Shown here in pieces: positions 2,201-32,685 of a stretch of 64,000 nt of DNA. The position numbers were made by a program, and so were the translations under genes. Location of the stretch: positions 6,262,001 to 6,326,000 of the forward strand of contig OX485809.1 in the NCBI GenBank assembly GCA_950295325.1, in the 5' to 3' direction. Source of the stretch: Polytrichum commune (taxonomy: Eukaryota > Streptophyta > Polytrichopsida > Polytrichales > Polytrichaceae). Every line of letters begins with the position of its first letter. The stretch's first letter is position 1. Under the pieces are notes generated by a model, which had not been told where the DNA came from, did not search any database, and saw only the letters and a list, made by a program, of their open reading frames with translations.

Positions 2201-2220
2201 CAAACCCACTAGGCATCCTT

Positions 2221-2300: not shown

Positions 2301-2329
2301 GTTTCTTCTGCTTTCTTTTTCATCGTCCT

Positions 2330-3428: not shown

Positions 3429-6400
3429 TTGGATGTTGGGGTTCGCATTGGCGCTGGGTCATCCCTTAGTGTAGAGGAGCATATGGAGCAAGGGTCTCCG
3501 TTGTCATGTGCTGAACCTACTGGGCTTACACCTGGTAGTGGCGAACCGCAGACACCCGGGATGACACTCACCGGCTCACCACCAGAATCGGATGTGGGTG
3601 TTCGTGTAATGGAGTATCGGATTCGCCACAATTTAAAAAAAGATAGTTTTTCAGTTGTTGAGGGCATGAGGATACAACCGGTCGAAAAGTCCTCTATGAG
3701 AATCCCCCTCTGCAGGTTGATTCACATGCCATTGGTTCGGCCAACTCTCCGCAACGACGTTACAAAGCTCATGGCAGCATTTCAATTTGGATACCGAGCT
3801 GGGTCTGCCACTTTTTATGTGTCTACTGCAAATGAGAGTGGAGAGAATCGATTCATTTTTGCCAAAGACAAGTATGAATGGGGAGAGCTATGGAATGCAG
3901 AAAATGATAAGTTTGAATCTTTTTTGCGCTCGGATAAGGACTTGATGAGCCTTAGTGGATGCATGTTATTTGTGTATGATGGTAACCACCGCTTGCTAGC
4001 GTGGAAGGAGTGTATTGAAACAGATCACAAGGACAATACACTTTGGTACGAGAAGCATGGTTGCCCAGAATGTGTCATCCTCGACACAACGGGTGGGCGT
4101 GGAGACGTCCTTAATACAATGCACGACATAAACAAGTAAGTTTGTTATTTTTTTGAACATTTTTTCCTTCATTTTTTTATTTTCATCTAATGCCATTTAT
4201 CTCAACCGCAACAGGGCTAACTAGACTGCGCACGTTAAGACTATCCTTGTTCACACTCTACACCGCATCCAAAAATACAGTTCGTATGATCTTAGCTACT
4301 ACCAGCCATTGTTGACCGAGGAGCAATTCCAAGCGTGCAAGAGCAGAGGCCCCAAGAGCCCTTGGTACCCGCTGACCCAGGATCTTATGGTGTCCTTCAT
4401 TTTCGATGTAAGTCACTCCAAATTCATCAAGCTCCTACTTCACATTCATTACTTTTAGTCATGGTGTAACAATTTAGAATACATGTCCAGTAAGAGATAG
4501 CCGATGCGGTAGATGAGGCGGCCCAAATCTTCAAGGAGGAAGTGCCTCTAGATGAGCAGTCAGGGAAGGGGTTGAGTGATGTATTGGACGCTGTAATTAA
4601 GAAGACGTCTGAGGAACTTGGGCACAAGTTCAACAAACAACAGTCGATCGCAAACCCTGCCCTTGGAAAACAGTTCCTAGATGAGGTAATTTCTTTGTCA
4701 TCCAATTTGGAATTATGCTTTTCGTATTGCTTGCATTCTTTGCAGCATTTTTCAGTAAACATTCTAAAATTACTTGGCCTTCTATTTTGATTGCATTTAT
4801 TTCAGATTACTAGGCATTATAGCGCCCACCATTCTCAAAAGATTGAGATGACATTGGAGAAATTGCAACTCATTGCCACTGCCGCTGTCGAGCCAGAGTA
4901 TAAAGTCCGTTGGCTTAAGTGGTGGAACAGTGGAAGTTTCAATCGTGAAGCTTCCGGTTTCCCAAAAGTCCTGCAAGCGAGGACAACTTGAAATCTTGGC
5001 TCAATAAATCAGCGTTCTGGGCAGGGGTACGTCTATCCTATTTTCTTTGCTTACCTTTCAATTCTTCATTTTGTGCCAATTCTCATGTTCGCCTTGAATT
5101 CCTTCACAGCTAGAGGATGCTGCGGTCAAGGAGTTACCGGATATACTAAGTGCATTGGGTGGGCTTGACGGAGACGTGGAAGTTGATTCGTTGCCGGATT
5201 ACTTGGAGAAGTGGCGAATTTGCCTTTGGGATAAGGCGTTCATTGGTCACTTCTCAGGGTCAGATATCTATGGAAAGGGGACGTGGTGGAAGGATGTCAA
5301 AGGCGCTGACAACATTGTCAAGCGCTTAATTTTCCGGTAAGTTAGTTGGGCCATCTTTTGTTCTCATTTATATCAAACTAGTTGTTTTCTAAGTTGCTTA
5401 TTGGCCTCACTCCTTGGTTGTGAAGGTACATCAAGCACGAGCTTTTCAAGAAGAAGGCTTTGAAGAAGCTTCCTCCATTTCTGGATGCATGGTCGGATTC
5501 CTCTTCGCCCACCTTCATTTTTTCCCCGGCTCAAAAGCGCAACTTCTCCCTCCCGCATCTCCGCGAGTGTTGCTGGTACTTGGAGTGTAAGAGGACGTGG
5601 CAACCGGATGAGGAGGCGGCCTTGAAGATTCGGCTCTCCGATGGAGAGCCACCTTCTCAAAGCGATGAGGTTGTTCTTCTAGAGAGTCAGCTTCCGGAGG
5701 CGGATGAGGTTGTTGCGACTCTCGATGAGCCCAACACTCAGAAGTCCAAGAGGAGGAAGCGTGCGACTCAAGACGAGTCTTCACTAAAGAAGCGCGCGAG
5801 GAAGCTGAAGACTGTGGAGGATGATCCCCCTGCTTCACCTGAGGCGGCAGTTGCATCCACTGCAACTCTTAGTCAAGTTCCTACTCTTTCCAGGCCGCCT
5901 CCTCCGCCCGTTCTTTCATCTGCTAGGCGTCCTCCAGTTGTTTCAGATGCATCTTGAATGCCTCTATTCTTCATCAACGTCGTCATTTTCAGGATGTTTC
6001 CAACTTCATTCTTTCTCTTCCACCCTCCTATCCGCGGAGAGCTCTAGGCGTTGCGAGGTCAGATGTGGGCATGGCTGATCTTGTCATTGCTGACCTCCCG
6101 GAGAACCTGCCGGTACCCAATGTCTCCGATCCTTCCTATAGTGTGCCTTCCTAGAATGCATTGGATTCCAATTTTATTGGTGAACTCTTCGATTTCGCGG
6201 ACGAGATCCTGCATGACGATGGAGCTCTCCTCCTCTTTCATCCAGATGACAATGGTGATTTCAGGGAGAGCATTGAAGACCACTTCGCTGCTTTTGGGTT
6301 CACGATCTTCATGGAGTGGCTGGGAGTCAACCGTCTTCGCCTACATTCAGCTAAGCATAAGGACAAGACCACCAACCTCTTCCAAGTTGTACTACTTGTT

Positions 6401-7335
6401 CGTGCCACCAAAACAATTGGATCTGACCTTGATAAGCGGCCCCGGCACTCGTCATTTCGCCTTCGCGATGCCAATGAGCTCAAGGCTCTTGGCATTGAGC
6501 TCGACATGGATGATGCGATTATGAATTATACCGCAACTCCTCTCATGGACGGCTCCAAAGCTTGGCGTGGTCCCCGGGAGAAAGATATTTCTTTCATGTC
6601 CTCCTTGATCATGGCCACTACGGACATTGGACAGGTTGTGGTGGACGTTAATGCAGGCGTTGGTATGTCCTAATTCACTTGCCAACATATCCTAGTTTTC
6701 AATTTCTAAGTTTGTTTTTTTTTCCTTTGCTAACCTTTCCTCCGCAACAGGGACTTCTATCCATGCATGCAAGCAGCTTGGGCGCCATATCGTTGCTCTT
6801 GAGGAGGACGAGGACACCTTCAACCGTGTCCTTAAGCCACTTAAGAGTGTTCAGCCTACGGTGAAGGCTCCATCCATTGTTGTTGCTTCCACGCAGGCTT
6901 CACAAGGCACGCAGAAGAGGCCGCCGGCCTTGAAGCGATCGAGGCCAGAGCCCTCGCAGTAAGTGAGTATGATGACCTTCTTCGCTTATTTTCTTTGTCC
7001 ATTCAGCTTTTACACTTTCCATCCTCTTTCTTACATTTATCGTGTTTTTTTTCAGACTTGGCGTTGGAGCGGATGTGTTGGGTACTCCCACCATGGGATT
7101 CACATTGCCTATCTATGCCCATGATATGGCGATGGTACTAGCGGCACAACCTTCTCCTACCGAAGCTAGTTCCCCGTCTCCACGTTATGACCCCCGTGCC
7201 TTAGACTTCTTCGAGCATTCTGCGGAGGTGGATAATGAGTGCCATAGCTTAGATTCCACTTCAGATGAGGGCGGCCATAAGGGTAGTATCTTTGGAAGTA
7301 GGGAATCTAGTAGTGACGACCTCATGGTTGATTAA
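3429..7335 (+). pseudogene. Locus A: ParB-like / DNA methyltransferase-like fusion gene, decayed
   Basis: Nine exons fit GT/AG rules and phase: about 3429-4135, 4215-4407, 4491-4685, 4806-5026, 5110-5336, 5426 to about 5957, 5993-6662, 6751-6958 and 7056-7335 (TAA). The start is uncertain; the first in-frame ATG is at 3483. Exon 1 encodes a ParB/sulfiredoxin-like module with IPLCRLIHMPLVRP and the motif VYDGNHRLLAW (near 3973), then a VILD strand and an NTMHDIN helix. The end of the protein resembles a permuted beta-class DNA methyltransferase: ADLPENL (motif IV position, near 6085), GALLLFHPDD, and after an intron DVNAGVGTSI...GRHIVALEED (motif I). A proline-rich, Lys/Arg-rich linker (exon 6) and an acidic Ser-rich tail complete it. 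Lesions: TAG at 4222-4224, TAA at 4491-4493, a 1-bp deletion near 4960-4980 (exon 4 is 221 nt against 219 in locus B and needs +1), and TAG at 6152-6154 where locus B has Trp. The exon 6 to 7 junction is unclear. Methylation activity is not implied. Confidence 0.7.
3960..4010 (+). other. ParB/Srx-type DGNHR motif in locus A
   Basis: The translated motif FVYDGNHRLLAWK matches the hallmark [D/E]G[N/H/Q][H/R]R loop of ParB N-terminal/sulfiredoxin-fold domains. In bacterial ParB proteins this region is part of the nucleotide-binding pocket. Locus B has FVWEGNHRLTAW at the same exon position. Confidence 0.7.
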
Positions 7336-9798: not shown

Positions 9799-11699
9799 CT
9801 AATTGGGATAGTTAGTAACACTATATTCGTTAATCAGAGACTTTTGAAAGTCTCAAAATAAAATATGCCCATAGTTTGGGATGCCAATATTGTGGGCATA
9901 CAGAATATTGGGAACATCAAGAACATGACGATTTAAAAATTCGCACGTAAAGCATATTCTTATTACTAAAAATAGAGAATTTCAATTAAAATGAAAACAT
10001 GAGTTCCATGTGGAAAATAACAATCGACTCTAAAAAATAAATGGTTTATGTCAATATAGAGTTTGGGGTGCGCATCCCATAAGTAAGGCTCTTATGAATT
10101 TGGGTTGCACATCCCAAACGTATACCACAATGGAATGTGACAAGTCCACTAAGTCTATTAAAAACCAAGTCTACTAAGCGTCCATGTTTTTCGCCATTGA
10201 CTCCCACCTATGTTATGTTTAGGGATCTCCATCTTCCACTTCATATCCATTCTCGGCGTCATTTTCTGCCGCTGCAATACGTACCAAGTTGTCTTTGGCA
10301 AAATCTATATGTTTTTGGGGGATGGTCATTGTTTCAATTTTGGAACCTTTACGCGGCTTCCAAGCACAGAGTATAGTATTCGTGTTTATCCAAACCAGTG
10401 TGTACGCTGAGTCCATTGTCCACTTAAAATTCTTTTTGGTGTCCCAACCTAAATAAGTGTGTAGCACGTTTTGGTCTTTAGTGCTTGGACGACAATATTC
10501 CACCTCAATTTGACGAAAATTGGGGCTAGTTCGAACAAAATTGGGTGAAGACAATGCTTTCACCAACCAAATTGGCTTGGGATGTTCCTCATCCCCTGCT
10601 CGTACAAGGACCAAATAACCTTTATGGCAATCAACACCTACACGAAACGACGGTGCTGGTCGATTACGGGCAGGGCCAACGTAATGCTCGTCCATTGCGA
10701 ACTCTTCACGAACGTCTCCATTGCTAAAAAACATGGTGTCGGACTCGACAACCGTTAAACGACTTTGTGGCCAAAATCCTTGTGTTAAAGTTGTACGGGT
10801 GTCGCCACCAACTGTCATTAGGGCCGAGCGAATGCGATCCCAATACGCAATTAAAGGTTCATGAGTATCTCTAACACGTCTAGTGATGTCCTCCTCACAC
10901 AACTCTTTCCAATATTCAATGAATCCGGATATGCCTTTGATAATTTCCGGCCCATTCCTCATGGGGTCGGGTTTGCAAGGCTTTGGATCTCCATCCGGAA
11001 GCAAATATTTGCCATCATTGTCTTGACGCCATACGAGTATACCATCATCCAGGCCCCAATTAGGAGATGTGCACAAAAGCTTGAATTGCATGGCCGGGAG
11101 ACCATCGTTCCTTATATAGAATCGGAATTGTTGTGCTTTGGTATGCCCCACCAAACGATCCCCTCCCTTCAACATGTATGACTTGATGAAGGCCTGTGAG
11201 GCCAAACCCACCACCCTTAAGCGTCCTAGTCCGGATGATGGGTTTGTGAATCACATGTGTAGTATCAAATGTCAATGATATAATACGTATCCTTCATCTC
11301 AGTGAACCTTCTAGTTCTAAAGTTCATGATGTTTTATTAATACATGTTTCCTGAACAAATGAGGCCTTAGCCTTCTCCAAAGTCCATCCCTCGGCTTTGG
11401 CCACGCATCCTCGTAAAGACATCCCCCTAACACCATTAATCTTTACTTCCTTTGCCTTGCCATTGCTAGGATCAACCACCTTCCCCATTCTTGAACAAGT
11501 AACTTATTTTGACCAATAAGATGTAAGTGTTTAAAAACACTGTCCTTGATGATCCACCCCAAATCACATTCACTAGCAAGCCACGCCTCTCGCTAACTAG
11601 CCTAATAAACCTAACACTTACCTACGTGCTAGAATAATTCTAAGATGCATGATTTAACCTATGCTTAGTTTTAAGCCCTTAAGCTGCCCCAGTAGCCTA

Positions 11700-15418: not shown

Positions 15419-15420
15419 CA

Positions 15421-16548
15421 TTTACGAACGTGCGTTCGTGACCTCACTAACTTCTCCATGTGTATCCGGCGGCCTTCGAGATCCCTCATCTGAGAGCACC
15501 CTCAGGAATATCGGTTTTGTAGGTCAAAGTACCATGTTCATTTAGGAACCTGCGCGATATACTATCACAAGAGAACACTTGTCCATACGCACAAAAGTAG
15601 TATATCTGAAGATGATGCCTGAATCCACTACAACAATATTTTGTACACTGAGCTCTTCATATTGAGATATTGATTCTGTTGACTTGTGCGTACCTATCCA
15701 TTCACGAACGGACGTTCGTAGATGGGTGCGACTCGTGTTCACATCCTTTACGGACGAGCGTCCGTTAATGATGACCATCGCCTTCCTTAGCAACGAACGC
15801 TCGTTCGTAAGTTTGCGATGAGCATATTTTTCTTGGTATTATGTGTTCGTATATAATTGCCATACTGATGTGTATGAATGAAGATGTGTTGCTGGATGCG
15901 TAGACAATAATGAGATGTATTTACAAACGCACGTTCGTAAATTACCGACCATTAGGTCCCAATAAATACGGGTAAAATAAGTATGTATGATCCTCGAAGG
16001 CATATTTACGAACGCACGTTCGTAAATGACTCATGAATTATGTGCATGTGACTAACCATATGAGTCGCTCAATCCAGAACATGCTCTCATGTGGGATTTA
16101 CGAACGCACGTTCGTAAATTACCGACCATCAGGTACCAATAGATACGGGTCAAATATATATGTATGATCCTCGAAGGCATATTTACGAACGCACGTTCGT
16201 AAATAATTGCCATGGATTATGTGCATGTGACTATCCAGGAGTAGGTCAATCCAAAACATGCTCTCATGTGGGATTTACGAACGCACGTTCGTAAATTATC
16301 GACCATCAGGTACCAATAGATACGGGTCAAATATGTCTGTATGGTCCTCGAAGGCATATTTACGAACGTGCGTTCGTAAATAACCGTCATGGATTACGTG
16401 CATGTGAATATCCATCTGAGTAGCTCAATCCAGAACATGCTCTCATGTGGGATTTACGAACGCACGTTCGTAAATCCTTGCCATGTTCAGGTCCGAATCA
16501 TTTGTCTAAACCTGAAGCTCCTCATCTTTACGAACGTGCGTTCGTAAA
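15421..16548. repeat. Cluster of 12 short palindromes, partly in a 177-bp tandem unit
   Basis: Palindromes with arm TTTACGAACG, a variable 2-bp centre and the mirrored arm occur near 15421, 15703, 15748, 15792, 15919, 16004, 16096, 16181, 16273, 16358, 16452 and 16527. From 15919 to 16475 they sit two per unit in a tandem repeat of about 177 bp (16004, 16181 and 16358; 16096, 16273 and 16452), with shared spacer words such as CATGCTCTCATGTGGGATTT and GATCCTCGAAGGCAT. Several are perfect over 22-24 bp. Confidence 0.95.
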
Positions 16549-16933
16549 GTTCCGATATTTACGGCGGTATATGCGGTAGGTACATCATGTACTCTACCTG
16601 GGTGATGTACTGTACCTGGGTGGTGTACTGTACCGAAATGGCTTGAGCGCGTTCGGTGTGGTCTGTAGAGCGCACACTTACATGTGCCGCTAAAAAGAGC
16701 TTTGTTGTGGGGGAAAGAGCTTTAAGTACTTCACCCCGCTGGTTCAAAATCCCTTGGATGCTCTTTAAAAAGCGGATTCCCGCTGCCTTCTTTGACCTAA
16801 CAATCTCCCATTCCATCCATGCGGAATTATATAAATAGCACTGTCATGTATGGAACATGCCTTGCATGCACGCCAACATATTGAAAATATATAAATCCGT
16901 TGCACACCTTAGTTGTGACCAAGGTCTCATCGA

Positions 16934-17148
16934 AATATATGTATATACATATATATATATATATACACACATAATGTCTAAATATGGAGGTGGTTAATAT
17001 TGAATATTTAATGATTTGCGACTAAGGTATGAAGTCCAAGTTAATTGACAATTGATGCCTAATAAAATTATGAATGTCGAAGTCATATATATATATATAT
17101 ATATATACATATATACACATATACACATATACACACACACACACAATG
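16934..17148. repeat. AT and CA dinucleotide microsatellites
   Basis: (AT)n runs at about 16940-16966 and 17084-17106, then (CA)n at about 17117-17146. Confidence 0.9.
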
Positions 17149-18125
17149 AGGTAAGAGTGGCTAAGAACATGTTGCGGACGCCCCTAAAATTATAGGTATC
17201 ATATGTTTCACATCAAAAAATGACCGTAATATGGTCACCAAGTGCATGAATACAACTAAAAAATTGGGTTAATCCATAATGGCTTGCACTAGGGTAGATT
17301 GAGGACATTATGAACTAATTATACCTAATAATATATGTAAGTTAGGTCTTCTTTCAAATGGTATCTAGGTGTGAAAATAAGGAATTAAAATGGCATGAGT
17401 AGGAAGGATTAATCAATTTGTAATGTTGCATAGTATGATAGCGTTATGATCATTGAGACTTGAAACCATAGCTACCGTAACGTTGAATCATAGTTACAAT
17501 TATTATGTGTTTGACGTTCTATTGGAAATTGAATTTTTCTCCACTTGTTGTAAGGGTACGGATACACATTGGTTAAACGTTTATTAGATCATTGGTGATA
17601 TTTATAGTTAAATGCATTGTTCGATAGTTAGTTTAAGTTGACACCTGATTAAATGAGTTGAGGTTCTATTGGAAATAGATTTTTAGGGTTTGGGGAAATG
17701 CAGCATTAATTCTGAAAGGTGCATACAATAGTATGTACTTACAATTAATATATGTTTTGCATCCTATGAGAAGGATGTGCATCATCATAACTTAAAGTGT
17801 TGATATAAATTGAAGTCTTAAGACATGCATGTTATTATAATAAGATCATGGACTGTGTGATGAAATTTCACTCAAAATTATTAAGGTGAAAGAGGGAATA
17901 TTTGAAATTTCACTTATCACCTAAACCAAAGTTTTATCTCAAATCTATTAATTTTGAATGTAAAAATGACAATTGGCATTATTATCAATTATTATAGTTG
18001 TTATGAACAGAATTAAGCATTCTCCATCCAACCAACATTGGTAGACCAATTTGACCTGGCCTCAGACAACAACATGGCCACATATAAGAAAGGTTAGTAA
18101 GATAAAGAGATGCAGGGATGTAGGA

Positions 18126-18190
18126 TTTAGGGTTTGCGGTTAGGGTTTACGGTTAGGGTTTGGGGGTAGGGTTTAGGGGTTTAGGGTTTG
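18126..18190. repeat. Interstitial telomere-like repeat
   Basis: Imperfect TTTAGGG-type repeats (TTTAGGGTTTGCGGTTAGGG and following). The Arabidopsis-type telomere motif is known from most land plants and supports a plant origin. Confidence 0.8.
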
Positions 18191-18720
18191 TGAAAGTTGT
18201 GTATGTGGTATTTGGGTTTAGGTTTTAGATTGTTACTAGGATACATTACACACACAAACAATATTGACTCCTGAAAAACCCTTATTGCACTAACTTTATT
18301 TATCGCAAGCTCGTAGTTGATGCTAGCAAAATAGTCGACCACACGGCTGAAATGCATTACTTCAAGCTAACACCTTTGGGAACTTGAATTGACATCCTAT
18401 CGTATAGCCACTCTCCGCAATCTCATATTATGAAGTCCTTTTTGCATGTAGTATTTATTCGAGGAACCATCAAACAAATTGGAAGATATCTCGTTCTTAC
18501 ATAAATTATATTTTAAAACACCATATACATATCTTTGGGGGTGGATTCTACATTGACAGCCTAGTAAATGACATGCATTGTTCAGTGCGAATTAACTAAG
18601 CATACTTTTCTAAAATATGTTTACAAGGAATCCTAATGTAGAGGTACTAAGGAAATAAAATGAGTAAAATTTATGTATTTGAACTAAGCTTTTCAAGTTA
18701 ATGCCCTAAACGCGTCCATT

Positions 18721-18900
18721 ACATATAAATATATCAAAGCATGAGTATAACATGAAGGGTTCCAATATACAACAATCTCCCATCTCCCATCGCATCCCAT
18801 CCCATCCCTTCCCATCACCTCCCATACCATTCCATCCCATCTCCCTCCCAGCCCTAGCCAGTGGAGTTGTGCCACGTGGCAGGTGCTGGGAAACCCTAGC
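18721..18900 (+). promoter_or_regulatory. Putative promoter of locus C
   Basis: A TATA-like box (ATATAAATATA, 18723-18733) is followed by a CCCATC-rich tract. A perfect palindromic G-box GCCACGTGGC lies at 18871-18880 and a telo-box AAACCCTAG at 18891-18899. G-box and telo-box are known plant promoter elements. Placement upstream of locus C suggests its promoter or 5' leader, but no start site can be assigned from sequence alone. Confidence 0.45.
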
Positions 18901-19029
18901 GGCGCACCTACCTCCCCGCGCCCCTTCCTCTTCTTCTCATTTGTCATTTCGAGGAGAAGAGGAGCGGAGCGCTTAGAGAGCGAAGCTCTTGCTTTTTTTA
19001 GTCTTGAAGTTTTAAATTAGTTTTGTTGC

Positions 19030-19340
19030 AAGTTTTGAGAGATTTCAGATTGAGAAGCTTGAGTGTGAAAGCTTGAGAATTTTACAAGCTTGAGAGTGTG
19101 AAAGCTTGTGAGTTTGTGAAAACTTTCAGTGTGAGAGTTTGTGAGTTTCAAAAGCTTGAGAGCTTGAGTAGCAAAGCTTCAGAGTTTCAGATTGAGAGCT
19201 TGAGGGTGATTTTTAGAAGCTTGAGAGTTTAAGGAAGTTTCAGAGTTGAAGCTTGAGAGTTTAGGGAAGCTTCAGAGGTGAAGCTTGAGAGTTTAGGGAA
19301 GCTTGAGAGTTAAGGGTTTGCTTAAGAGTTCAGAAGCTTG
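19030..19340. repeat. Degenerate AAGCTTGAGAGTTT repeat tract
   Basis: Many imperfect copies of GAAGCTTGAGAGTTT at 12-40 bp spacing, probably in the transcribed leader of locus C. Non-coding. Confidence 0.8.
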
Positions 19341-19790
19341 AGAGATACAAGCTTGTGAGTTTTGTGTACATGGGAGTATGCTAGGGTTTGTATATAAGTT
19401 GTGAAGGCTTGAGGTATGCATTAGAGAGTTAACTGAGTGTGCATTTGAAAGGCAATTGAGTGTGTAGTTGTGAGAATTTCTGGGATTTTCAGAAAGAGAA
19501 GAAGCATGGTTTGAAGTGTGCAGCATTTCAATGTAATTAGTTATCCTTTCCAACTCCTCTCACATTCTGAAAATGTTGCTTCTTGAATTCAATTTTGTTA
19601 CATGCAATGTAAATTATCACTTTCTTCTTCATGTTTCATTCTCAATCTCATTCTGCATCTCAATTGCGTTTTGATTCAAGATTTGCAGGCACGGCTGCAA
19701 GCAAAGTTGCTAATAAGAGAGTTATATACATATATATGTATATGTATATGTATTCGTATATGTACGGACAGGGGATCCCAAAACCATCAC

Positions 19791-20375
19791 ATTTACGAAC
19801 GCTCGTTCATAAATGGACATACACTGCATACCCAACCTCCATTTACGAACGTGCGTTCGTAAATACGCACTCCACGTTCTTTGGAATGCTCTATATTTAC
19901 GAACGCACGTTCGTAAATATACGCCAAATATCACTCAGATGGAACCTTTACTTTAATATGAACCTATCCGAATATCTAAAGAACAACTATAAATTTACGA
20001 ACACCAATAAAACAACTCACATGTACTTACGAAAACTAAATCAACCAAATGTCCGAAAAGATAGACCAAATGGACATACTTACGAACGCACGTTCGTAAA
20101 CAAAACCAAATCTAGAAAACCTATATCTTTTACGAACGATCATTCGTAAAAATAACCAAATATATTGCAAATACATTCATGACGAGTAGTCTCTTTGATC
20201 TTCATATCTTTTACGAACGCTCATTCGTAAACTCAATACTAAAATTTTATATTATCTTGCAACCCCTCATTTACGAACGAACGTTCATAAATATAATTAC
20301 ATCAATTGCAAAGATGCATTAACAATGCGCAGTATGTGGGATATGCATGTCATTTACGAACGTTCGTTCGTAAAG
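19791..20375. repeat. Cluster of eight short palindromes in the leader of locus C
   Basis: The same ACGAACG-NN-CGTTCGT palindrome occurs near 19791, 19841, 19894, 20080, 20128, 20210, 20269 and 20353. The last one ends 28 bp before the first coding exon. Several have one arm changed (CATTCGT, GTTCATA). Translation of these copies creates recurring IYERSFVN-like words in false frames. Confidence 0.95.
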
Positions 20376-21701
20376 TCACTAATTGTTTATATTCTGTTGC
20401 AGATGGCAAGATCAAACAGAAGCGCCATTGAGATGTTCGCGGTGAAGATCGATCGCCTCCCAGAGTCGGTGTTAGACGATAACGGCAACGACAACTATGT
20501 CCCCAAGGAAGACTTCATGGGGGAGTGGACGGCACTGCCAGAGAAGATCGGGGACGGCCTCTTCTGCATGCGCTTCACCTACGAGCTGGAGACCAGAGTG
20601 GACCAGCCTGAACAGTGGGTTCAAATGAAGACGTGGGAGATAGAGTCCATAGAGGCCCAGGGGGAGTATGTAATTCTTGACATGAAGAACAAGAAGGGTC
20701 ATATCAACCTCTTGTTGCATTTCCAGAAACATACCTTCTCCTACACATACGCCACCAATAACGTAGTGGAAGATGCCAAACACTTCGACCTGGACGCACT
20801 CTTCTCGAAGTATGCCTTGAGCCCATACTGGACGGCAAGGAAATTGACAGCCCTCGCCTTGAACATCTCGAAGTACAACAGTGTGGTCACCGAGGCCAAC
20901 AAGAAAAAGAAGAGCCCCAAGAAACCATCCACATCAGGGGCAGGAGGATCAAGAAGTGCACCCAAGCCTGTGCCTTCCGCGAGTAGGGCGACGGAGGGCC
21001 CTAGCAGACACTCCACGCCATCGAAGAGGACAAGGGAAGAGATGGAGAAATCGGTAGTAACAGATACCGCGGAGGTGAGCTCGCCTCCATTGATGCCTAC
21101 CCCCTTGAAAAAGGGCGAGAACCTGACGCTGTGAAGGCCACCAGAATCCTTCGAGACTTCAACAACTACTCGAAGGATTGCTGGCCCATGGGACGCCACT
21201 TCACATTCAACGTGGACTGCTTCAAGTGCGAGAAGTCCCCCAACAAGTGGGTGGTTTGGTCTCGCGAGAGCGGTGGTGTGAAGTGGCAGATCAACAATTT
21301 CATGAACAATGTAAAGTGGGATAGGCAGACCGTCTACATCATGCCGAAGGGGCTGACATCCCGTCCGTCGGAGAAGGACTGGCCACGGATCCAGGATGGA
21401 GAGTTCTGGATCATAGACGGCCAACACAGCTTGGAGGCGTCCCAGATAATCCTCAAGGACGACAACTTCCAGCACGAGCTGAAGGCAGATTTGCGCTACT
21501 AGAAGGCGTTCCTGGTGTGGTCGGACGACTGGGACAAGCTGCGGAAGATTTCCACCTTCCTCAACTCCGGCAACAAGATTAAAGCCTTCGAGGCATCCTG
21601 GGCAACCAACATCGTGGCTGCGAGAGACGTCTGGGTTGCTCACGGGTGTCCCCCAAAGGAGCGGGAGAACGCCAAGACCCCGTCTCCACAATGGAAGGTG
21701 A

Positions 21702-21779
21702 GTTTACGAAAGTTCGTTCGTAAAGGCCGGGTACATTTATCTTTTATTGACTTCCAAATTCACGAACTTGCGTTCGTAT
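21702..21779. repeat. Two palindromes in intron 1 of locus C
   Basis: One begins 4 bp after the donor (21702-21725, left arm altered to TTTACGAAAG). The second is at 21759-21779 (CACGAACTTGCGTTCGT). Both are diverged copies. Confidence 0.85.
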
Positions 21780-23157
21780 TTTGTGCATAATTGACATTTC
21801 ACTTTTACTACAGGCATTTTGCGACGCAATGGTGGACAAGTTCTCGTCCATCGACATGAAGTCCACAACAACCAAGTCTGTCTTGGAGCTCAAGGGTGAG
21901 CTCCGCCTCATCTGCTGCAACAGGGACACTTGGGACTTGTGGACCCAGTTTTTTGATGCACACAGCTCGGGGGATCTTGTCAACCCCGACACCGAGGAAA
22001 AGTATAGCGCGGAAAAGACCGGGGAGGCCCCTCCACTGCTAAGGGAGTTCTTTAGGTCCCTTCAAGGGTTGACGGAGTCCGAGTTGCAGAGGTGCGCGGT
22101 GCATCTTCTTGGGAACACAGTGGGTAGAACCATACCCTACCCCAAGATATTTTTGAAGAGGCCAAGGCACAAGCCCGGCACGTATTCCATAAAGGAATGG
22201 TGCGACCACCGCAAGATGAAGACGGCGGCAATGAGGGAATTGAGTGCCCTAATACCCGAGTACGTCCTCTTCCTGGCCGATGGGGACGTGAATTGGGCCA
22301 GTTGGAAGATGTTCAAGGTCGACTACAACATCTCCGGAGCCTCAATGCGTTGCCTTGTCAAGGAGCACGTCTCCATTTTGAAGCAGAAGGGGAACAAGAG
22401 GACAAAGAAAACTGAGACGGATCCCCAGGAGGTGGAGCAATACAAAAGGTTTTTGGCGCGGAAGAGGATGGCCACATTCGAGGGAGTGGCCCGATTTTGT
22501 GTGGTGACAACCGGCGTAGAGAGAACAACTTTCTCTAAGTGGGACGGCACCATCAGCAGGTCCGAGGTTAGGGAGGACCGACGGGGGTGCCCATTTGCCC
22601 TGATCGATTTCAGGGGGATCCCGGGTGCATCGAGGCAGGGGGGGAAGGACATGCCATTCTACAACCCCTTCATGACCAAGTTCAAGGAGCACAAGCCGCC
22701 GGACATGAGGAAACCTCACGTTTGGCTGTGGATAGTGGAGCAGGAGAAGCTCTCTGTTGTAGTCGACCTGTACGAGAAGACGATCAAATTCGAGTACAGC
22801 ATCTTCCACAACACTTACGTGCCTGCCAAGACGGAAGGGATTGTGGCCATCAACGAGGCCAGGGGGAACAAACAGGTGGGGGCGGTCAGCCTCGTCTTCT
22901 TGACGTACAACGCGCTTCGCAATGGGCGAGCCCCTGTCAGGGCGAATACTACGTTCAAGAAGATCTACAGCATCCCCCATCCACCTCCCAAGGATCTGCT
23001 GCAGGAGACCTTGTACACTGTCTTCCCGGCGCTGGAACTCAGGTTGGAGTTCTACGTCTCCGTGTTGCAAAGCATGGCAATAAGCGGAGAGACTATATAC
23101 AACGTCTGTGGAGGCAGCAAATTCATGTACACTGCAATGGTAAGCTCTCCAAGTAAT

Positions 23158-23258
23158 ATTTACGAACGCTCGTTCGTAAAGTTCACATCAACTTGCTTTG
23201 GTTTCATTAAAACTTGCATTGTTTCTCGTCGTTGATGTTTACGAACGCACGTTCGTAT
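23158..23258. repeat. Two palindromes in intron 2 of locus C
   Basis: 23158-23180 and 23238-23258, with centres CT and CA. The intron is 146 bp, so palindromes make up about a third of it. Confidence 0.9.
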
Positions 23259-24268
23259 ATTCTAACGTATTTGCTTGGATCTCAGATGCTGGGGTTGGTC
23301 GTCAACAACTTCGTTGACGCCGTGGACGAGGAGGACTTCCAGGTGCACAGGGCCAAGGCGTCCACGATGGACCTGGAGGACATGTCCCTCCCAAGGACGG
23401 ACATCAACATGCCCGTCGACGAAGGCATGCCCGCCATGGAGACGGACGACGACGAGCCCGTGCCCGCGCCCTCCTACAACGTCGAGGCGATCCTCCGATC
23501 CTTGGATGTCACTCCTCTGCGAATTTTGGGGCCGTCGGGAAACCCATCCGACGTGCAGGGGACTTTGGGTGGATACACGGGGTCGTCAGCGGGGACAACC
23601 CAAGATGTCCTCCCCGCGAGAACGTCTGGAGCGGAGGCATTCGGCACTCCCGGGGGATGCTCGACATCCGTGTCGCCCAGGCCAATCGTGGTTCCCAAGA
23701 TGGAGAACCTCGACCTTCTGGACCAACGGTCCCGACCGACGTTGGACCACTACTGCAACACGAGGCGGAGGATGAAGAAGACCCCCTACGTGGAGCTGCC
23801 TCCGGGGGCAATCATCGAGGTCTCCGATGAGGACGAGGGCGACATGGAGATCATGGTCGAGCTGGGGGTAGACTTTGACAAAAACAAGAGGGTCAAAGAG
23901 GAGGCGTTGTCCGTCGCCGAGCTTAACGCCAAGCTCAAGCAAAAGATGAAGGAGGACATGGCGAAGGCGGTAGAGGAGAACGCCAAGAAAATGTTCAAAA
24001 TTCGAGAGGAGCTGAGGCAGTCCAACGAGAAGACGGACGCCATCCTCGCCATGCTCCAGCGTATGCAGAGCTTCGCGGCGCCCCCCCAGGCGGCCTACCC
24101 CTTCCCTAGAGGATACCCCTCCCAATCCCCTCCACCAGGCATATTCACCGGAGGGCCTTCCCGCCAGTAGGCGCCCCACCCTACGCCTGTTGGCACTCCT
24201 CCGCCCCCAGAGGTTCCCTCGACCACCTCCCACGATGCTGTCGCGGCGGCCATCCAGGAGGACAAGGA

Positions 24269-24290
24269 TTTACGAACGCGCGTTCGTGAA
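24269..24290. repeat. Palindrome inside coding exon 3 of locus C
   Basis: A near-perfect copy with GC centre lies in frame and is translated as DLRTRVRE. The reading frame is open on both sides. Confidence 0.9.
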
Positions 24291-24645
24291 TCTTCAGGTC
24301 CTCTAGTCCTCACCCCTCCCCCTTCAAGGGTAGGACTGCCCTCAGACACCGATACGTCGTCTTTCACCGTCGTCCCCAGGGTAGTAGACAGACATGGCGA
24401 TGACTCTACGCGACACACTGACATGGTCATTGTGGAGGACACGCAGGGGAGCCCCAATGACGTACCAGGAGTGCATGGGATGGACGTGGAAGAAACCCAT
24501 GCGGCGTGGATGGAGGATGTCAAGATGGACGCGCTCGACCTGGGCGCCGAGGAAGAAGACGCGTTGCGCATCCAGGCGACACAGGCGTCTCAACCGGAGC
24601 GTGAGGCAGAGGCCATGGAGACAGAGGCGGCTACAGCTGTGGAGG

Positions 24646-24774
24646 TTACGAACGCGCGTTTGTTAATCGTTGAGGAGGGACCTGCTGCTCGGTCCAGCGC
24701 CGCTGCCCCTCCCCCCGATGACGAGGTAACTCTCCTCTGAGAATACCATTTTTTTACGAACGCGCGTTCGTAAC
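24646..24774. repeat. Palindromes at the end of exon 3 and in intron 3 of locus C
   Basis: A degenerate in-frame copy at 24646-24666 (TTACGAACGCGCGTTTGTTA) and a good copy in the last intron at 24753-24774. Both have GC-rich centres like the exonic copy at 24269. Confidence 0.85.
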
Positions 24775-24866
24775 CTCTCTAACATCGTGATGTTTTTCTC
24801 TTCATTGACATCCAGTGGCCCGCGAGATGTGGTACTTTTGGGCCACCCCCTTTCGAGGGAGCCTAA

Positions 24867-27800
24867 AAGTATCACACAAGCCCTTCGGTGAAGGTGGCCT
24901 GCATTTGCAGGCGCCCAAGCCGAACCCGGATGATAGGTGTATAACGTGAGTAGTTAGATTTTTAAGGGAGATTAAATATGCGTCGTAGTACCTCCGGAGG
25001 TTAGGCCTTAGTTTTTTACTAGTGTGGCTTTAAACTCCACTAACCAATTTCATATCTAGTTCTAACCTTAACCTACAACCTATTCTACGCGCAGACGCAC
25101 CAGCCTTGAAACCAAGGCAATCCTAATTTGTGAATTGGGATGGTTCTGATACACCCAACCGGGTGTGACTCATACCACCCTAACTCAACGAACGGAATAA
25201 CGACAATTTGATGGACCATTCAATTCTTCCTATTTCTTTATTTAGTTCTATTTAGTTTTCTAAGCGGGGGAACTTGGCCTAAGTCCCACCCTTCACACAA
25301 ATTCCTTCTTAATTACTTACTTTTGTTTGCACGTCCTAACTCACTACATTAACATATTAGGCATCACCCCTTACCTCGGGTCTCTTGCCAACAAGGGTTT
25401 ACGATTTATTTTGTATGTTTTGATTGTTAAATGTGTTTACACTGGATAGACCACGAAATACAACTCAATGGGACCAGGGTGACGGGCGACCTGTAGGTTC
25501 AACCTGTTGCGCAATCTTCATAAATTGGGGCCATTACTCCCAATCTATGGGGCCAACAACATAATAGTGGATTCGCGGGTCATTAACCCCACCTTTCCAC
25601 CAACAACATTCAGAGTGGTCGTGTCGGTGATTAATCCGACTTACCACACACGAAACTTGCTAATAAATGAAGCTACTACCACAAAACATACCAAGGGCCC
25701 CGAAAACAATGGAATTGGGTACTCCCTTGGCGGTCAAGTGGTCAAGCCACTTGACCTTACGAGATAGGTGAGTGGGTTTAGAGATGCGTACCTTAGCCGT
25801 GCTCCCTCCAATCCTAAATGGAAGGCTTAAGGTTAGTTAATTTACCTCAATTTTCCTCGGTTGATTTGGGCTTGATGTAGGCCGAGCCGCTACCTCCTTC
25901 CTTGCTCCACTTTCCGAGCGTCGACCTTGCCTCCTTCTTTGTAACTAGTTTGGTAGTAAGCGTACCTTAGTTAACAATTAAAATATAAAGTGTTATTCTG
26001 CCCTGTAATTTAATCCAAAGCATAATTTTTATACTTAGTGCACCAAATTATCTTTCCAATGATCTAAAAATCACTCTAATCGGATAAGAAATGCAAAAGT
26101 TATGAGGGTTGGAAGTGTGAGGTCGATTCAACCGACCCTTCCAACCCACCTATCTACCTTCTAACTTCAAAAATTCATAGCACATTCCTTACTACTTGGA
26201 TCTAGGCTTTCCTTATACCATTGGAAAGCTATGAACAAGCTCTAACTAGAAAAAATTATGACATCAGCAGGTTAAGCTAATAGAAATTCAGCGGACTCCT
26301 TGTAACACAGCAGTCAATCAAGAAGGCTTAAACTATGTATCTCGCCTTCAACAATTCATATCTAATTCAAATCTTAGTCAAATCAAACGTTCTATATGAC
26401 CCTGGAGAGATATTCAAAAGATGTATTTGATAAAAATATGTGATTAGAAAGGTAAGCCGAAGTGAACCCAGCAGGTCCTCTGTAATGCAGCAGTCAACCA
26501 AAAGTTCTCAAACTATGTGTCCCATCTTGCACAATTCATATCTAATTCAAATCATGCTCAAATCAAATGTTCTAAGCCATTTTGGAAAGCTACACAAAAG
26601 TTCTACTTGGGAAAAATATAATTTCTTGGAATTAAAATTCCTATTGGGCTCGCAGGTCTGATCCAGCAGCCGCTACCCACAAGACCACCCAGTTTTTCTA
26701 CTCCATCTTTGAAAATCCATAACTAATTGTCATCTCAACCAAATCACAAATGGGAAACGGCTATGGATAGCTATATGAAATCTCTCTAAGAGAAAAATGA
26801 TAAGTATCTTGTTCTAGCTTTTGAACTAAGCCTTCAGGGCATTGGCAGATGAGGTCTATAATGCCTCTACTCAAAACTCTACCATCCAACCTACCTCTAC
26901 AAAAGAAGGAATAATTTTGTTGGTGTGTTAATAAACACACAACCTAACTAGGAGAGAGAGAGTAGAGGAGGTTCTCAAGCCTTTCTTTTAGACCATTGAG
27001 AATACATGCTAAAGGATTTTTTCCTAACTACATTGAAGCAGGGCTTCGCCCAAAAACTAGAGAAAGAGAGAGAGCTACAAGGTGGAAGGAGGGGTTTTTA
27101 AACCCTCTCACAAAAGGGTTGGACCCCTCCTCCACCGGATCCATTTTTCAAACCCTTTCCCGAAATTTTGGCTCGGGGGTTTTCCCGGTTGAGGTTGCCA
27201 CCCTCTCGCCGAGGTGGCTCCGACAAAAAACCTTTAGAAATCTTTCTAATTTTTCCGCCATCGAGTTGGCAAGGGGGCAAGTGGGCAAGTATCCCCCTTG
27301 CTCTCTTTCTTTTTTGTCTTCAAAATTCTTCACGCCGATTTTATCTTCTTACGTAAAACACCTCCAATAGTCTTGTGTGCCTCACACTAACTAATAAACT
27401 AACACTTGCTTAGCTAGCATCTACTAACATTTGCTTAATAACTAGCATCTACTAATATTTGCTTAGCTAGTTGTTTTTACTAGCTAGCACATTTTTTCTA
27501 CTTTGCTATCTTCTAGCACTACTTAGTTTCATTTTGACCTTCCTTCTTCTAGGCTAAATGCTAAATGAACTAATTTTTCCTAAATTCCCTATCAATTCTA
27601 ACTTTTAATGCTAACATTCTAACTAAAAGTGATCCCGCAGAGTGGTGGACCACTCAAAGGGTTCACACGAGAGCCCTCTTCAGCGATCCCCCTTAGGGCC
27701 GAACAGTTTTGTAGGACACGGCATCATTTTGCCTTAGGAAAATGTGATAGACTATCACGTGAGAAATGTAAATATTCAACGGATTAATATATGAGCCTAT

Positions 27801-27890
27801 GTTATCTGCATCTTGTTGCTTCAAATTCTCTGCCCTCGACCCCTTCTCGTATATTGTATATGTTGATGCGATTATGTTCATTCTTGCATA
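24867..27890. other. Non-coding, LTR-like region between loci C and B
   Basis: No gene is supportable. A motif at about 24931 (CCGGATGATAGGTG) resembles one near the left end of the 1612-bp insertion (11232, CCGGATGATGGGTT), which suggests related LTR-type DNA. A repeat of about 180 bp (ACAATTCATATCTAATTCAA at 26343 and 26529) and the GGAAAGCTA words are typical of decayed retroelement LTRs. No ends or target-site duplication were defined. Confidence 0.4.
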
Positions 27891-27898
27891 CCCACCTC

Positions 27899-28006
27899 AT
27901 TCGCGAACGCTCGTTCGTGAAAGGCTGCGACCCACTGTCCACCTCATTCGCGAACGACCGCTCGTAAATGTACGTGTAGCCGCGCTCACGAACGAGCGCT
28001 CGTAAG
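27899..28006. repeat. Three palindromes upstream of locus B
   Basis: Copies near 27899, 27948 and 27986 with arms GCGAACG or ACGAACG and centres CT, AC and AG. The last two are degenerate. They lie 125-230 bp before the putative start codon of locus B. Confidence 0.85.
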
Positions 28007-28130
28007 TGATGCGCACCGCTGGACCAGATTTTGACTTTGTTGTGTATGCTTGAGTTAGCACTTAGATTCCAAGAGGTTAGGCAATCAAGGGTAATGTCTA
28101 ACTTTCCTTTTTGTATAGGAGTCTCAAGCT

Positions 28131-31100
28131 ATGGATCTCATTCTCTCCGAGGAGCCATCCACAGATGCCCATGTTCTTCAATTGGAGCCTGCCGAGGTGG
28201 AAGTTGATCCACTTGTCGATGTCCAACCGGGAAAGGTGTTCTCTATGTCAACTCTTCCTTTTGTTTCCAAGCACTTCCGGTACCTTGGCTTTCAATATAT
28301 TTTGGGCTTAATCTCATATCTTTGTTTCCACCCTTGTAGATTGATTCACCTCATCAATCCGACCTCGTGCGTCATCTTGATGAGTCTAATGCGGAGGAGA
28401 CTGAGCTCGAAATTCGGAGATCCCAAAAAGAAGACTCTATCGGTGTGATTCATAGGGTTCGCATCAAACCTCTTGCTAAGTCACGTTTCTCTATTCCATT
28501 GTGCCGCTTGCAATGTCTTCCTTTTGTTCGCCCCATCAGCGAGGTCGATGTTGCTCGGCTGCAAAACGAATTTGTCATGGGTTACCGTGACGGTGACCGT
28601 GCGATGTATGTCTCTCCCTACAACAACCTTGATGAGGTGCTTCTAGTTTCGGACGACATTCGAGCCTCCTGGAGTTCACTATGGCAGGAGTCTAGTGATG
28701 AGTTTGATTCCATGCTCGAGAAGGATTCCGACCTCTCTCAATTTGTTGGCAAGATGTTTTTCGTGTGGGAGGGGAATCATCGCTTGACGGCTTGGCTTAG
28801 ACACATTAACAAGCACCATTCCATGGACAAAGATTGGCACATCTCCGTGGACTGCATTGTTGTCGACCCGAGAAACTGTGCTGCCATCTTCCTTAATGCC
28901 ATGAATGACATCAACTGGTAAGTTTGTTTTTGTTTGGGTTCTCATTGTTTGTTTTCCATTCTCAAAAATTTTCATCTTTTGTTTCTCGCTTACTTATTCC
29001 TTGTAGGTCCACGGAGCACGACCATGTCAAGGACAACCTTCCCGCCAAGCTCCTCCGCATTCGAACATTTGGGAAGATGAAACTTGAGGAGTTCAAGGAC
29101 CTCATTTCTCCCCAAGACTACAAGACTTGCGAGGCCAAAATGCTAAAGACTCCAACTTGGTATCCTCTTACCTTGGACGTATTCGTCAAATTCTTGTATA
29201 AGGTGATTCTTCCTCCCCTTCCTTTTGCTTTGATAGCCCACAAGCATGTGTTCATACTTGCCATCTTACCCTCCAAATACAGTGACATATATAGGCTTAT
29301 GCCTTTCTCCTCTTTATTTATGTGATTCATTTTCATTAAGAGCCCACAAGCATGTGTTCATACTTGCCATCTTACCCTCCAAAAACAATGACATATATGG
29401 GATTATGCCTTTCTCCTCTTCATTTATGTGATTCATTTTCATTAAGAGCCTACAAACATGTGTTCATACTTGCCATCTTACCCTCCAAAAACAATGACAT
29501 ATATGGGATTATGCCTTTCTCCTCTTCATTTATGTGATTCATTTTCATTAAGAGCCTACAAGCATGTGTTCATATTTGCCATCTTACCCTCCAAAAACAA
29601 TGACATATATGGGCTTATGCCTTTCTCCTCTTCATTTCTGTCATTCATTTTCACTTCTCTTTGTGTGTTTTAGAGAGAGATCTCGAACGCAGCCGACACT
29701 GCAGCAAGGTTGTACCGGGAGAATACACCCGAATCCTGCAGGTCAGCTACCGAAATTTGGGATACTATGACCAAAGCGCAAGATAAACTCATCAAGAGTA
29801 TTCGGACTCGAAATTTCGAGAAGTTCATTTCCGTCGCCCACAAGGATAATGGCGAAGACTTCTTCTACAAGGTGCGCCTCCGATTTGTTTTACTTTTGGC
29901 TTTCAACTTCATCTTTCATCCATTCTAGTTTTATATTTTCTTACACTCTCATATGTTGCAGATTGACCGTCATTTTTCCACCTTCATGTACCCCGATATG
30001 ACGATAGAAAAACTTCAAAAGGTGGTAACCACCCATGTCGATGCCTGTTTCAAAGCCAAGTGGCTTCGGTGGTGGAATTCTCCCGCCAAGGTCAAAATGG
30101 AAAATCAATTCCCCTCTTCTCTTCCTCTCCGTGAGAAAGTCCTTGACGACTGGCTTAACAAAGCTTCTTTTTGGGCACATGTACATCTTCATCTTTTATG
30201 TCTTCTTGTTTGTTAGTTTCTCTCATTTCCATATCTAACTGTTGGTCTCTCTTTACATAGTTGGAGAAGGGCGTTGAGGCTGAGATTGCATCGTTTGAGA
30301 ACGAGTTGTCCGTGGACATTGATTGGAATTCCACGGAGATTTTAGACCCGTCCAATTATATTGAGCATTGGAGGCTCATTTTGTGGGACAAGGCTTTCCG
30401 GGTGTATTTTGAGGACAAGGCCGATTTAACATTTAGTAAAGGCCTTGACCTCTTCGAGTTCGACGAAGGCCCCATCGCCATCAAACGCGTTGCTTACCGG
30501 TACTCTTTTCCTTTCATTTTTTTCATCGCTTTCGTTTCCTTTCCACGGCCATTTTCTTACTCTATGTTTTCCATTTTCTAGGTACATTCACCGCGAGCTC
30601 TTTGTGAAGAATGCTTTGCCTCCTTTGTCTTTGCCCGCTTTCCTTTTGGAGTGGATCGATGTCCACTCCAATCTTTGTGTATATACGGCCATGCAAGTTG
30701 CAAAGTTTCCACCCTCGCACTTGAAGGAATGTGGTTGGTACTTGGATTGCTCTCGTGCATTCGTGCCCGATGAAGAAGAAGCCCTTTACGGCAGCCTTGT
30801 GAACTCCGGCCCCGACGTCATTGAATTGGATGAGGAGCCAGATGAACCTACTCCCACTCCTCCATCGATTGAGAAGGATGTTGCGCCCCTCAAGGGTAGA
30901 GGCAGAGGTAAGAAGGCTCTCGCCCATGCCTCTTCTCAAGTTTCCTCACGTTCTAATGCTAAGGCCTCCGTTCAACGCAATGTTCCTCCAGCCACCACCG
31001 TGGTTGGAAGTCCCACCGGCACTCCATCTGCCGCCCTCACCAATCCGGTAGTTGCTCCTTCTCATAGCGGTGTAACCATTCCATCTGTGCCTCGCAAGCG

Positions 31101-32685
31101 GAAGGTTGTTGCACCTGATACGTCGGCAACTTCCTCCGACATGTCATCTTGCCTTTCTTTGATTGAGAATGTGGACATGGGGGAGCTCATTGAGGATCTC
31201 ATGAAGACCAAAGTTCCACCTCCGGCCTACCGACGCATCCAAGACTTCCTAACAAAGGTTTGTGTGCATTGTTTTATTCTTTCATTCAATGTATTTCATC
31301 ATTTTCTTGTTTTTTGACTTTGTTTGCATTTTGGCATTTCAGGTTGGAGCGGGTCGTACTCGTCCAAACACCAAGCATAAGGTTCACACGGGCATTGATC
31401 TCCTGTTTGCAGATGTGCCCGAGAACCTACGTGTTCCGGGCATCACTGCCTCATCCTTGGATGTTCCTCACTGGAACATCCGCTCAACCACTTACTTTGA
31501 GGTTCTGTTTGCATTCGCGAATGCCAACCTTCATAACGATGGCGTCCTCGTCTTTGCGCATGTTGCCGATCCAGAGGTTTCGAGATCAATTCATAACTGG
31601 GCTTACACAGAGGATTTCTATGTTGCCGAGGACTAGTTCGGCATGAACAACCTCGATCTTCAATCTCCCTCTAATCCGTCTGAACTGGTACTTCTTCTTG
31701 GCCTTCATCCATTTTCATTCATAGTCTTTTTGTTTTGTTCTTGTTTTTCTAACTCTAGCTTTCACAATTTGTGTAGACTCGGAAATTTTGTCATCAAGGT
31801 ACTTGTGCGGAACCGGTCCGTTTTGAATGTCCGCACGTCGGACTTCATGGACATGGGCTACAATCTCAAACGAGATGGTTGGCTCAACAGCTTCACCGAT
31901 TTTAAAAACCAATCCGTGAGGGTCAACGGGGTGCCTTGGAGAGGCGCTCGTGAAAAGCGCCCGGAATTCTTTTCGATCTTTTTCTCCGCCCTCACAGGTA
32001 AAGACGACATTATATTGGATTGGCAATGTAGTGTTGGTTCGTTCTTCTTCTCTAGTTTTTCTCATTTCTTTCCTTTTGGATTTTTTGATTTCATTTGTAA
32101 TCGGTTCCTTATTCATTTCCCAATGCTAATCCCTTCGCATTTTGTTTGTTTAGGAGGTTTCATCATAGCATGCCGCTCCATTCAACGCCATATTGTGGCG
32201 CTTGAATCCGACATTGATGTCTTCAAGTCCATCATCCTCCCTCTTCGCGAGCCTGACCAAGAACAGATCTCTCAATCCGCTGCCCCTCAACGAGGCTCCG
32301 TTTTTGCTCCTCCTCCTTGAAAGATGGCCAAGCGCAATTTCGATTTGCTTTGTGAGTAAGTTCGTTCGTTGATTCTACCTTGTTTTCCTTTGTATCTTCA
32401 AGTGTTTGACATAGAAATATGTGCTCATGTTTCTCTTTCTTTTCATCTATGTGCAGAGTTCAAATTGAAAGCCCCATCCGCGTTCCTAATGCGGAGATTT
32501 TTGCAACGCCTTCGGCGACGTTCGAGCTCCCTTCTTATGCTTCAGAGCTTGCCCATCGTTTGGCCGAAACACCATCCCCACCTCCTAGTCGTATCCGGCC
32601 TTACAACAAACTAGTATTGGATTTCCTAGACATAGAGGCAGAGCAGGGCGAGGAAAGTGATAGACATAGTAGTCATAGTGGTTGA
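28131..32685 (+). pseudogene. Locus B: ParB-like / DNA methyltransferase-like fusion gene, decayed
   Basis: Eleven exons: 28131-28235, 28340-28917, 29007-29202, 29674-29871, 29962-30180, 30261-30499, 30582-31257, 31343 to about 31687, 31777-32036, 32154-32355 and 32457-32685 (TGA). Most boundaries and phases match locus A. Exon 2 encodes the ParB-like module (FSIPLCRLQCLPFVRP, FVWEGNHRLTAW, CIVVDPRN, FLNAMNDIN). Middle exons carry KAKWLRWWNSP and FPPSHLKECGWYLDC, both mirrored in locus A. The C-terminal part has LLFADVPENLRVPG (altered motif IV), GVLVFAHVADPE, VPWRGAREK, and DWQCSVGG then ACRSIQRHIVALESD (motif I region). Lesions: TAG at 31634-31636 where locus A has Trp, and TGA at 32318-32320, with homology to locus A continuing after both. 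The exon 8 donor is also off: the good GT at 31688 gives the wrong phase, and a weak GT at 31678 would fit. A 5' leader intron is likely (AG at 28118-28119). Confidence 0.72.
29235..29655. repeat. 106-bp tandem repeat in intron 3 of locus B
   Basis: Four copies begin at 29235, 29341, 29447 and 29553 with few differences. The unit includes ACAAGCATGTGTTCATACTT and GCCTTTCTCCTCTTCATTTA. It produces a periodic false frame. Confidence 0.95.

Follow-up and report, generated by a model that had tools for sequence, protein, structure and literature searches.

Dispersed mobile elements of the moss Polytrichum commune carry genes with ParB-like and methyltransferase-like regions, each family surrounded by its own iterated motif

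Proteins that combine a ParB domain with an N4C/N6A DNA methyltransferase are already known from algal transposons. The Ectocarpus transposon Sola1-1_Ec32 encodes a 1,104-aa accessory protein of this composition; in the accessible text of that report (PMC12477816), its authors suggest that proteins of this kind may bind the transposon that encodes them and modify it, and they cite relatives in green (Iyer 2011) and red algal (Petroll 2025) transposons. A second point of comparison is VANC of the Arabidopsis VANDAL transposons, whose targets, according to the portion of PMC5735166 available to us, are often tandem repeats, vary between related elements and also occur in introns. Here, we analyze a 64,000-nucleotide stretch of the P. 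commune genome (the window; C7:6262001-6326000 of a 407.8-Mb assembly with seven chromosome-size contigs), in which three loci, A, B and C, had been predicted from the letters alone to encode a ParB-type motif followed by a permuted methyltransferase. The three loci are copies of large, intron-rich and very numerous mobile elements, and what is new relative to the algal transposons is a short iterated motif around each family. On balance, we favor the explanation that the encoded protein is a transposon accessory factor, a ParB-methyltransferase fusion that would recognize its own element through this motif and counter silencing.

The original prediction regarded a multi-copy, intron-rich plant family with such a fusion as unusual; fusions of this kind are already described from algal transposons (PMC12477816). 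Likened by description to the Sola1-1_Ec32 protein as far as that text presents it, the moss protein is likewise the product of a eukaryotic transposon gene, has a similar length (1,087 versus 1,104 aa) and contains ParB-like and methyltransferase regions; it differs in its degenerate catalytic motif and very high copy number, in that no transposase was found here, and in its family-specific iterated motif, which the same text does not mention. Among the titles and abstracts listed in a limited check of the open-access literature were no such elements beyond those of PMC12477816, none in land plants and none with motif arrays.

The observation on loci A (3429..7335), B (28131..32685) and C (20403..24866), all on the forward strand, is real. 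Read in the DNA, the ParB-type motifs lie near their predicted places (VYDGNHR in A, VWEGNHR in B, IIDGQHS in C), as do motif IV-like stretches (DLPEN, DVPEN and VVDLYEK, the candidate in C reading DLYE), hydrophobic strands (GALLLF, GVLVFA, GAVSLVF) and glycine loops (DVNAGVG, DWQCSVG, NVCGGSK). Gene A has its ParB-like exon at 3594..4135 and its methyltransferase-like region, with DLPEN, GALLLF, WRGPREK, DVNAGVG and HIVALEED, at 6062..6830. Gene B consists of 11 exons with GT-AG splice sites (28131-28235, 28340-28917, 29007-29202, 29674-29871, 29962-30180, 30261-30499, 30582-31257, 31343-31687, 31777-32036, 32154-about 32355 and about 32457-32685, the last ends placed by inspection); VWEGNHR stands in the exon at 28340..28917, and DVPEN, GVLVFA, WRGAREK, DWQCSVG and HIVALESD are in the methyltransferase-like exons spanning 31343..32320. 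A and B are homologous (40% identity across the ParB-type exon), and the methyltransferase region of a young relative, Y, which has the same exon plan as B, is 63% identical to that of B and 38% to that of A. A, B and Y are one 11-exon gene family, and C, with inferred introns, represents a second. All three window genes are broken, as judged partly by inspection and not remarked on in the prediction: A by in-frame stops and a break of frame, B by in-frame stops and a frameshift, and C by one in-frame stop within the ParB-like exon. Reassignment of TAG in these genes was ruled out, since intact relatives exist and other copies contain TGA and TAA as well.

Searching the genome with the ParB-type exon of B gave 1,240 candidates for the A/B/Y family, 150 of which were scored (66-100% identity), and family C gave 1,014 candidates, again with 150 scored; both scored sets are scattered across all seven large contigs. 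Among the 150 scored rows of family C, 22 have an identical score (290.3 bits) and an open frame of 511 aa, which indicates recent spread. Among 12 Y copies examined, three (L035, L038 and L043) retain the intact frame of 1,087 codons without a stop, and nine carry stops or frameshifts; compared with the Y copy L034 over 6.0-7.2 kb, 10 of 11 copies are 98-99% identical and the remaining one, L050, is 97.6% identical. A common 3' terminus, CATACTTGAGTTTCCC (36266..36281, forward strand, in the B element; one base different in L040), closes the 12 Y copies and window B, and beyond it the sequence differs copy by copy; L034 and L036 both enter another repeat past it, at different points. This terminus is found unchanged at 96 places in the genome (reversed control, 0). 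For 72 of these, a ParB-like exon from the 150 listed lies within 40 kb, always on the same strand, and 65 of the 72 are 2.1-13.7 kb downstream of that exon, with three farther away. Copy identity, the common 3' end, the genome-wide terminus count and the exon pairing show carriage by a mobile element. The predicted multi-copy, intron-rich family stands as to its many copies and 11 exons, but it is a family of mobile elements. A perfect terminal inverted repeat of CATACTTGAGTTTCCC was ruled out (0 of 72 paired termini in the opposite orientation), so that the other end of the element differs. For window B, whose left side is truncated, no target duplication was seen.

To describe coding constraint, we compared Y with B over 797 codons, obtaining pS 0.73, pN 0.25 and dN/dS ~0.11 with dS near saturation; by this measure the reading frame is under purifying selection, and the low ratio implies that the protein has been retained over long times despite the decay of many copies. 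Exons 9-10 give 0.15 (137 codons), and Y versus A gives ~0.37 in the methyltransferase block. In the ParB exon alone, dS between Y and B is saturated and yields no ratio; among the Y copies divergence is <1%, and the ratios of 0.5-1.2 are uninformative.

Each family is encircled by its own iterated short motif, a feature absent from the original prediction. The window contains 19 palindromes with arms of at least 7, against 4.1 expected (maximum 7), and 81 short-spacer inverted repeats (nested ones counted singly), compared with 3-14 in ten Markov sequences. Upstream of gene A, an array of 170-bp units (1..3200, broken at 1298-2131) includes ten GGATCC sites; all ten within 1-3400 fall in CTGTCGGATCCGACAG, seven perfect and three with one mismatch, and in the rest of the window CGGATCCG never occurs. 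The Y palindrome, GAGGCCTCGGATCCGAGGCCTC, has 1,903 genome sites (reversed control, 0). There are 6-17 palindromes with this core per 10-kb Y locus (n = 12), and in the 11 loci with a located gene start every one of them is upstream of the gene. Among the first 50 genome sites listed, three Y 3' termini account for 49 at distances of up to 13 kb; 20 have a listed exon within 10 kb, and the other 29 of the 49 are near a terminus with an exon outside the 150 listed. The Y palindrome recurs unchanged in arrays whose unit is 96 bp and in others of 127 bp, with spacers that differ between the two. In A and Y, the palindromes have a common core, TCGGATCCGA, and differing arms.

Family C is associated with another palindrome, TTTACGAACGNNCGTTCGTAAA, with 2,909 genome sites (control, 0). 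Of its first 86 listed sites, all on one contig, 58 have one of the 29 C genes listed for that contig no more than 8 kb away, compared with 0.5 under even scatter; by cluster, four of five have a listed C gene. The centre dinucleotide is variable, 13 of the 16 possibilities occurring among these 86. In the window, at ≤4 mismatches and without a control at that looseness, we find 31 sites (11 exact) at 15421-27985 plus one position at 36294, of which those at 15421..24774 lie upstream of gene C, in its inferred introns (21703, 21759, 23159 and 23238) and near its 3' end. The window cluster has a 3.27-kb gap resembling the 3.0-3.4-kb gaps in five other clusters. The B motif, GGRCCAKATTT, is a direct iteron with 31 window sites, all around gene B (0.23 expected). 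Thirty are at 32871-35407, in the 75-bp (32823-34191) and 84-bp (34319-35499) arrays, which together with 101-bp units at 35749-35943 make up the B-family arrays of 32821..35943; the only one on the 5' side is at 28021..28031 (forward strand), and in five other copies the array on the left is longer.

These arrays recall VANC, a transposon protein which, in the accessible text on it, likewise has tandem target motifs in its own element that differ between relatives and also lie in introns; the moss motifs are tandem in their own elements and occur in the inferred introns of gene C, with binding putative. The two also differ. The domains described there are DUF1985 and DUF287, neither of which had a Pfam match in the protein pieces scanned here, and the moss proteins are not counted as VANC members; the A, C and Y sites are long dyads, unlike VANC sites; and loss of methylation was shown there, again as far as the available text goes, whereas here an anti-silencing role is suggested by analogy.

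Similarity searches support the identification of the C-terminal part of A, B and Y as a relative of N6A/N4C methyltransferases of beta order: gene A passes Pfam PF01555 (30.4 bits versus a cut-off of 26.7, E 4.9e-7, profile positions 31-215 of 221), and Y alone matches below the cut-off (E 0.13, positions 175-215). Further matches were to a PHROG DNA methyltransferase (E 4.1e-8), to NCBIfam CcrM (E 8.4e-8; 31.5 bits, far beneath that equivalog's cut-off of 830) and, by tblastn, to phage methyltransferases (best E 4e-6 among the 30 of 95 records that were listed). Searched against the PDB, a profile built from three rows (Y, B and A) retrieves adenine-specific methyltransferase (5hek, 5hfj; E 2.2e-5), CcrM (0.003) and a DNA cytosine-N4 methyltransferase (8s9m, which we take to be a rotifer enzyme; 0.19), the next row being a ribosomal protein at 0.36. 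The same profile aligned by hhalign with 23 bacterial fusions puts motif I in register at a probability of only 1.2%. A first Pfam scan with the 834-aa B protein and pieces of A and C gave no match, and protein database searches with B and with intact Y returned no relative at E ≤ 1e-3. Motif IV precedes motif I in Y (DIPEN at residue 773, DWQCGVG at 942) and likewise in A and B; the predicted methyltransferase part, in this order, is supported for these three and not confirmed for C.

The canonical catalytic motif IV is [DNS]PP[YFW]. The moss proteins instead have D[ILV]PEN (DIPEN in Y, DVPEN in B, DLPEN in A), with Glu in place of the aromatic residue, and a motif so degenerate suggests that the protein may be inactive; the methyltransferase-derived domain is probably no longer catalytic. 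The glycine loop of A, on the other hand, is close to canonical. Bacterial and phage ParB-methyltransferase fusions share with the moss family the succession of ParB and N6_N4 methyltransferase with IV before I, and differ in their intact DPPY; no similarity of the ParB parts is detectable, and the moss gene is split into 11 exons, its protein containing an additional middle of ~500 residues. One such fusion, of 443 aa with intact DPPY, is present in the assembly itself (L001, contig C12); this small contig and C23 (L002-L003) carry bacterial or phage ParB genes and are probably contamination. The weak match to 8s9m places the moss proteins beside another bacterial-type N4C/N6A methyltransferase in a eukaryote. 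A eukaryotic N4C methyltransferase is reported, in the available part of PMC8885841, to make a real 4mC mark, and relative to that enzyme the moss genes are mobile and degenerate.

The N-terminal region is somewhat more likely than not to have a ParB fold. ParB domains are marked by a G-x-x-R type motif that follows a hydrophobic strand. By eye, both motif and layout fit (strand, Arg-Pro, helix, strand, V[WY][ED]GNHR, helix, with a ~45-residue insertion), and V[WY][ED]GNHR is found in 20 of 21 aligned members, the remaining one, L027, having EGNHC; the C motif, DGQHS, lacks the arginine. In this part of the prediction, then, the GNHR-type motif and its setting stand, but profile tests gave no ParB match. 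PHROG ParB reached only E 0.47 at the A motif, the C exon matched phrog_27051 of unknown function (7.9e-4), and NCBIfam gave nothing for the ParB-like parts of A and Y and TruD at 0.17 for C. Between the ParB-like and methyltransferase-like regions of the ~1,090-aa protein lies the middle of ~500 residues.

We propose that the N-terminal region would recognize the short motif that recurs around the gene and, in the case of family C, also within the inferred introns, and that the protein would thereby load onto its own element only. The methyltransferase-derived domain, probably noncatalytic, may then keep or alter the chromatin or methylation state of the element's DNA, most likely countering host silencing such that the element is expressed and transposed. 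A separate motif for each family is expected if protein and sites coevolve. A broader and decidedly tentative reading is that these families constitute a eukaryotic counterpart of ParB-parS in transposons: their ParB-like proteins and own sites, long dyads in three of four families, would form a self-recognition code, with a noncatalytic methyltransferase as reader, that might shield the elements from silencing or partition them. Candidate target sites can now be proposed for transposon-borne ParB-methyltransferase proteins, roughly two and three thousand for the two families counted genome-wide, and the intact young copies and concrete motif sequences make the binding hypothesis directly testable. 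If it is true, sequence-specific anti-silencing in transposons would have an origin independent of VANC, from bacterial parts.

Several results weigh against the accessory-protein explanation. None of the 21 ParB-like exon members matches any Pfam family; no ParB is among the 38 PDB rows retrieved with their alignment profile (the best being glycine sarcosine methyltransferase at 0.03, followed by chance level); and hhalign of the ParB-like part gave nothing with either the 23 ParB-methyltransferase fusions or a mixed set of seven ParB sequences. In the moss assembly, PF02195 was found only on the small contigs C12 and C23 (three matches, four candidates scored). In the structural check that had been put forward for the fusion, AlphaFold2 modeling of the ParB-like exon from two sequences had a mean pLDDT of 45.4, too poor to judge, and Foldseek returned meaningless matches to unrelated folds (best E 8.7e-3). 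The methyltransferase part of C, for which a repeat Pfam scan gave no match and the glycine loop is suggestive only, was not confirmed. As for mobility, four of the 72 paired termini are on the other side of the exon, 24 of the 96 have none of the 150 listed exons nearby, and neither a transposase nor the 5' end nor a target-site duplication came to light in the sequence read, which stopped short of the element's 5' part. As for the motifs, 28 of the 86 C sites (a cluster of 26 and two singles) have no C gene nearby in the list of such genes, which is capped, and the 86 are the first listed rather than a random sample; the B iteron is direct, not a palindrome, and was chosen after reading the arrays; and since tandem units duplicate, site counts are not independent events.

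One alternative, which we consider unlikely while giving it some weight, is that the encoded protein is the transposase or a subunit of it and that the iterated motifs are subterminal sites for pairing and cutting of the ends. No other long gene-like frame is evident in L038, the one Y locus (10 kb) whose frames were listed, and in five of five B-family copies the 75-bp array 5' of the gene is inverted relative to the window's 3' array. Yet the domain found is methyltransferase-like and no known transposase nuclease, the motifs also lie within the inferred introns of gene C, and the unread 5' part leaves room for a separate transposase.

Slightly less probable is an active methyltransferase that would place N6-methyladenine or N4-methylcytosine on the GGATCC core within the palindromes of A and Y, protecting or labeling the element. 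The core common to A and Y is consistent with this possibility, GGATCC lies in the palindrome at 10 of 10 sites upstream of A and, allowing close variants, at 31 of 32 sites in L034 and L050, and the near-canonical glycine loop of A points the same way; self-modification was also suggested for the algal proteins by Dinatale and colleagues, as far as the accessible text goes. Against these stand the motif IV without its aromatic residue, the B and C motifs without GGATCC, and 13 further GGATCC in the window outside the motif. Less probable again is the idea that the palindromes and arrays are structural, as hairpins or by-products of replication or recombination unconnected with the encoded protein: tandem arrays can expand on their own, but the conserved arms with varying centre dinucleotide and spacers are typical of a protein site, a different motif accompanies the gene of each family, and the B motif forms no hairpin. 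A nonmobile host multigene family with a chromosomal role, for which long intron-rich genes under coding constraint might speak, is scarcely credible given the dispersal of the 150 scored copies per family, a common 3' end with differing flanks, and the broken state of most Y copies checked and of all three window copies.

Several other repeats accompany the arrays. The interruption of the A array at 1298-2131 is a repeat of ~836 bp, present in or beside six other fetched copies in either orientation. L053 (C1:13981500-13983200) has an outer Y-palindrome array, located upstream of the gene at ~7.5-9 kb and inverted relative to the inner one; the interval between the two arrays contains more CTCGGCCGAG stretches. 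To the left of the Y array in L052 (C1:2251200-2252600) are gene-like stretches unmatched in other fetched copies, which may belong to the element, to its flank or to a further insertion. In the window, variant C-type palindromes at 27900-28006 and 36294 flank the B element and give the impression that it sits within an old array of C type.

Elsewhere in the window, open frames of 343, 231 and 229 aa on the minus strand at 10219-14146 look like the gene set of another transposon; two of these frames were scanned without a Pfam match, and the stretch LDNCAKDNKCRYIFGFWSLLV...VGHTYDDIDASFGRW is reminiscent of DDE-type transposase-like domains. A direct duplication at 58123-62846 comprises three pieces, 95-98% identical, ~4.2 kb apart, and a TTTAGGG-like tract is located at 18121-18190.

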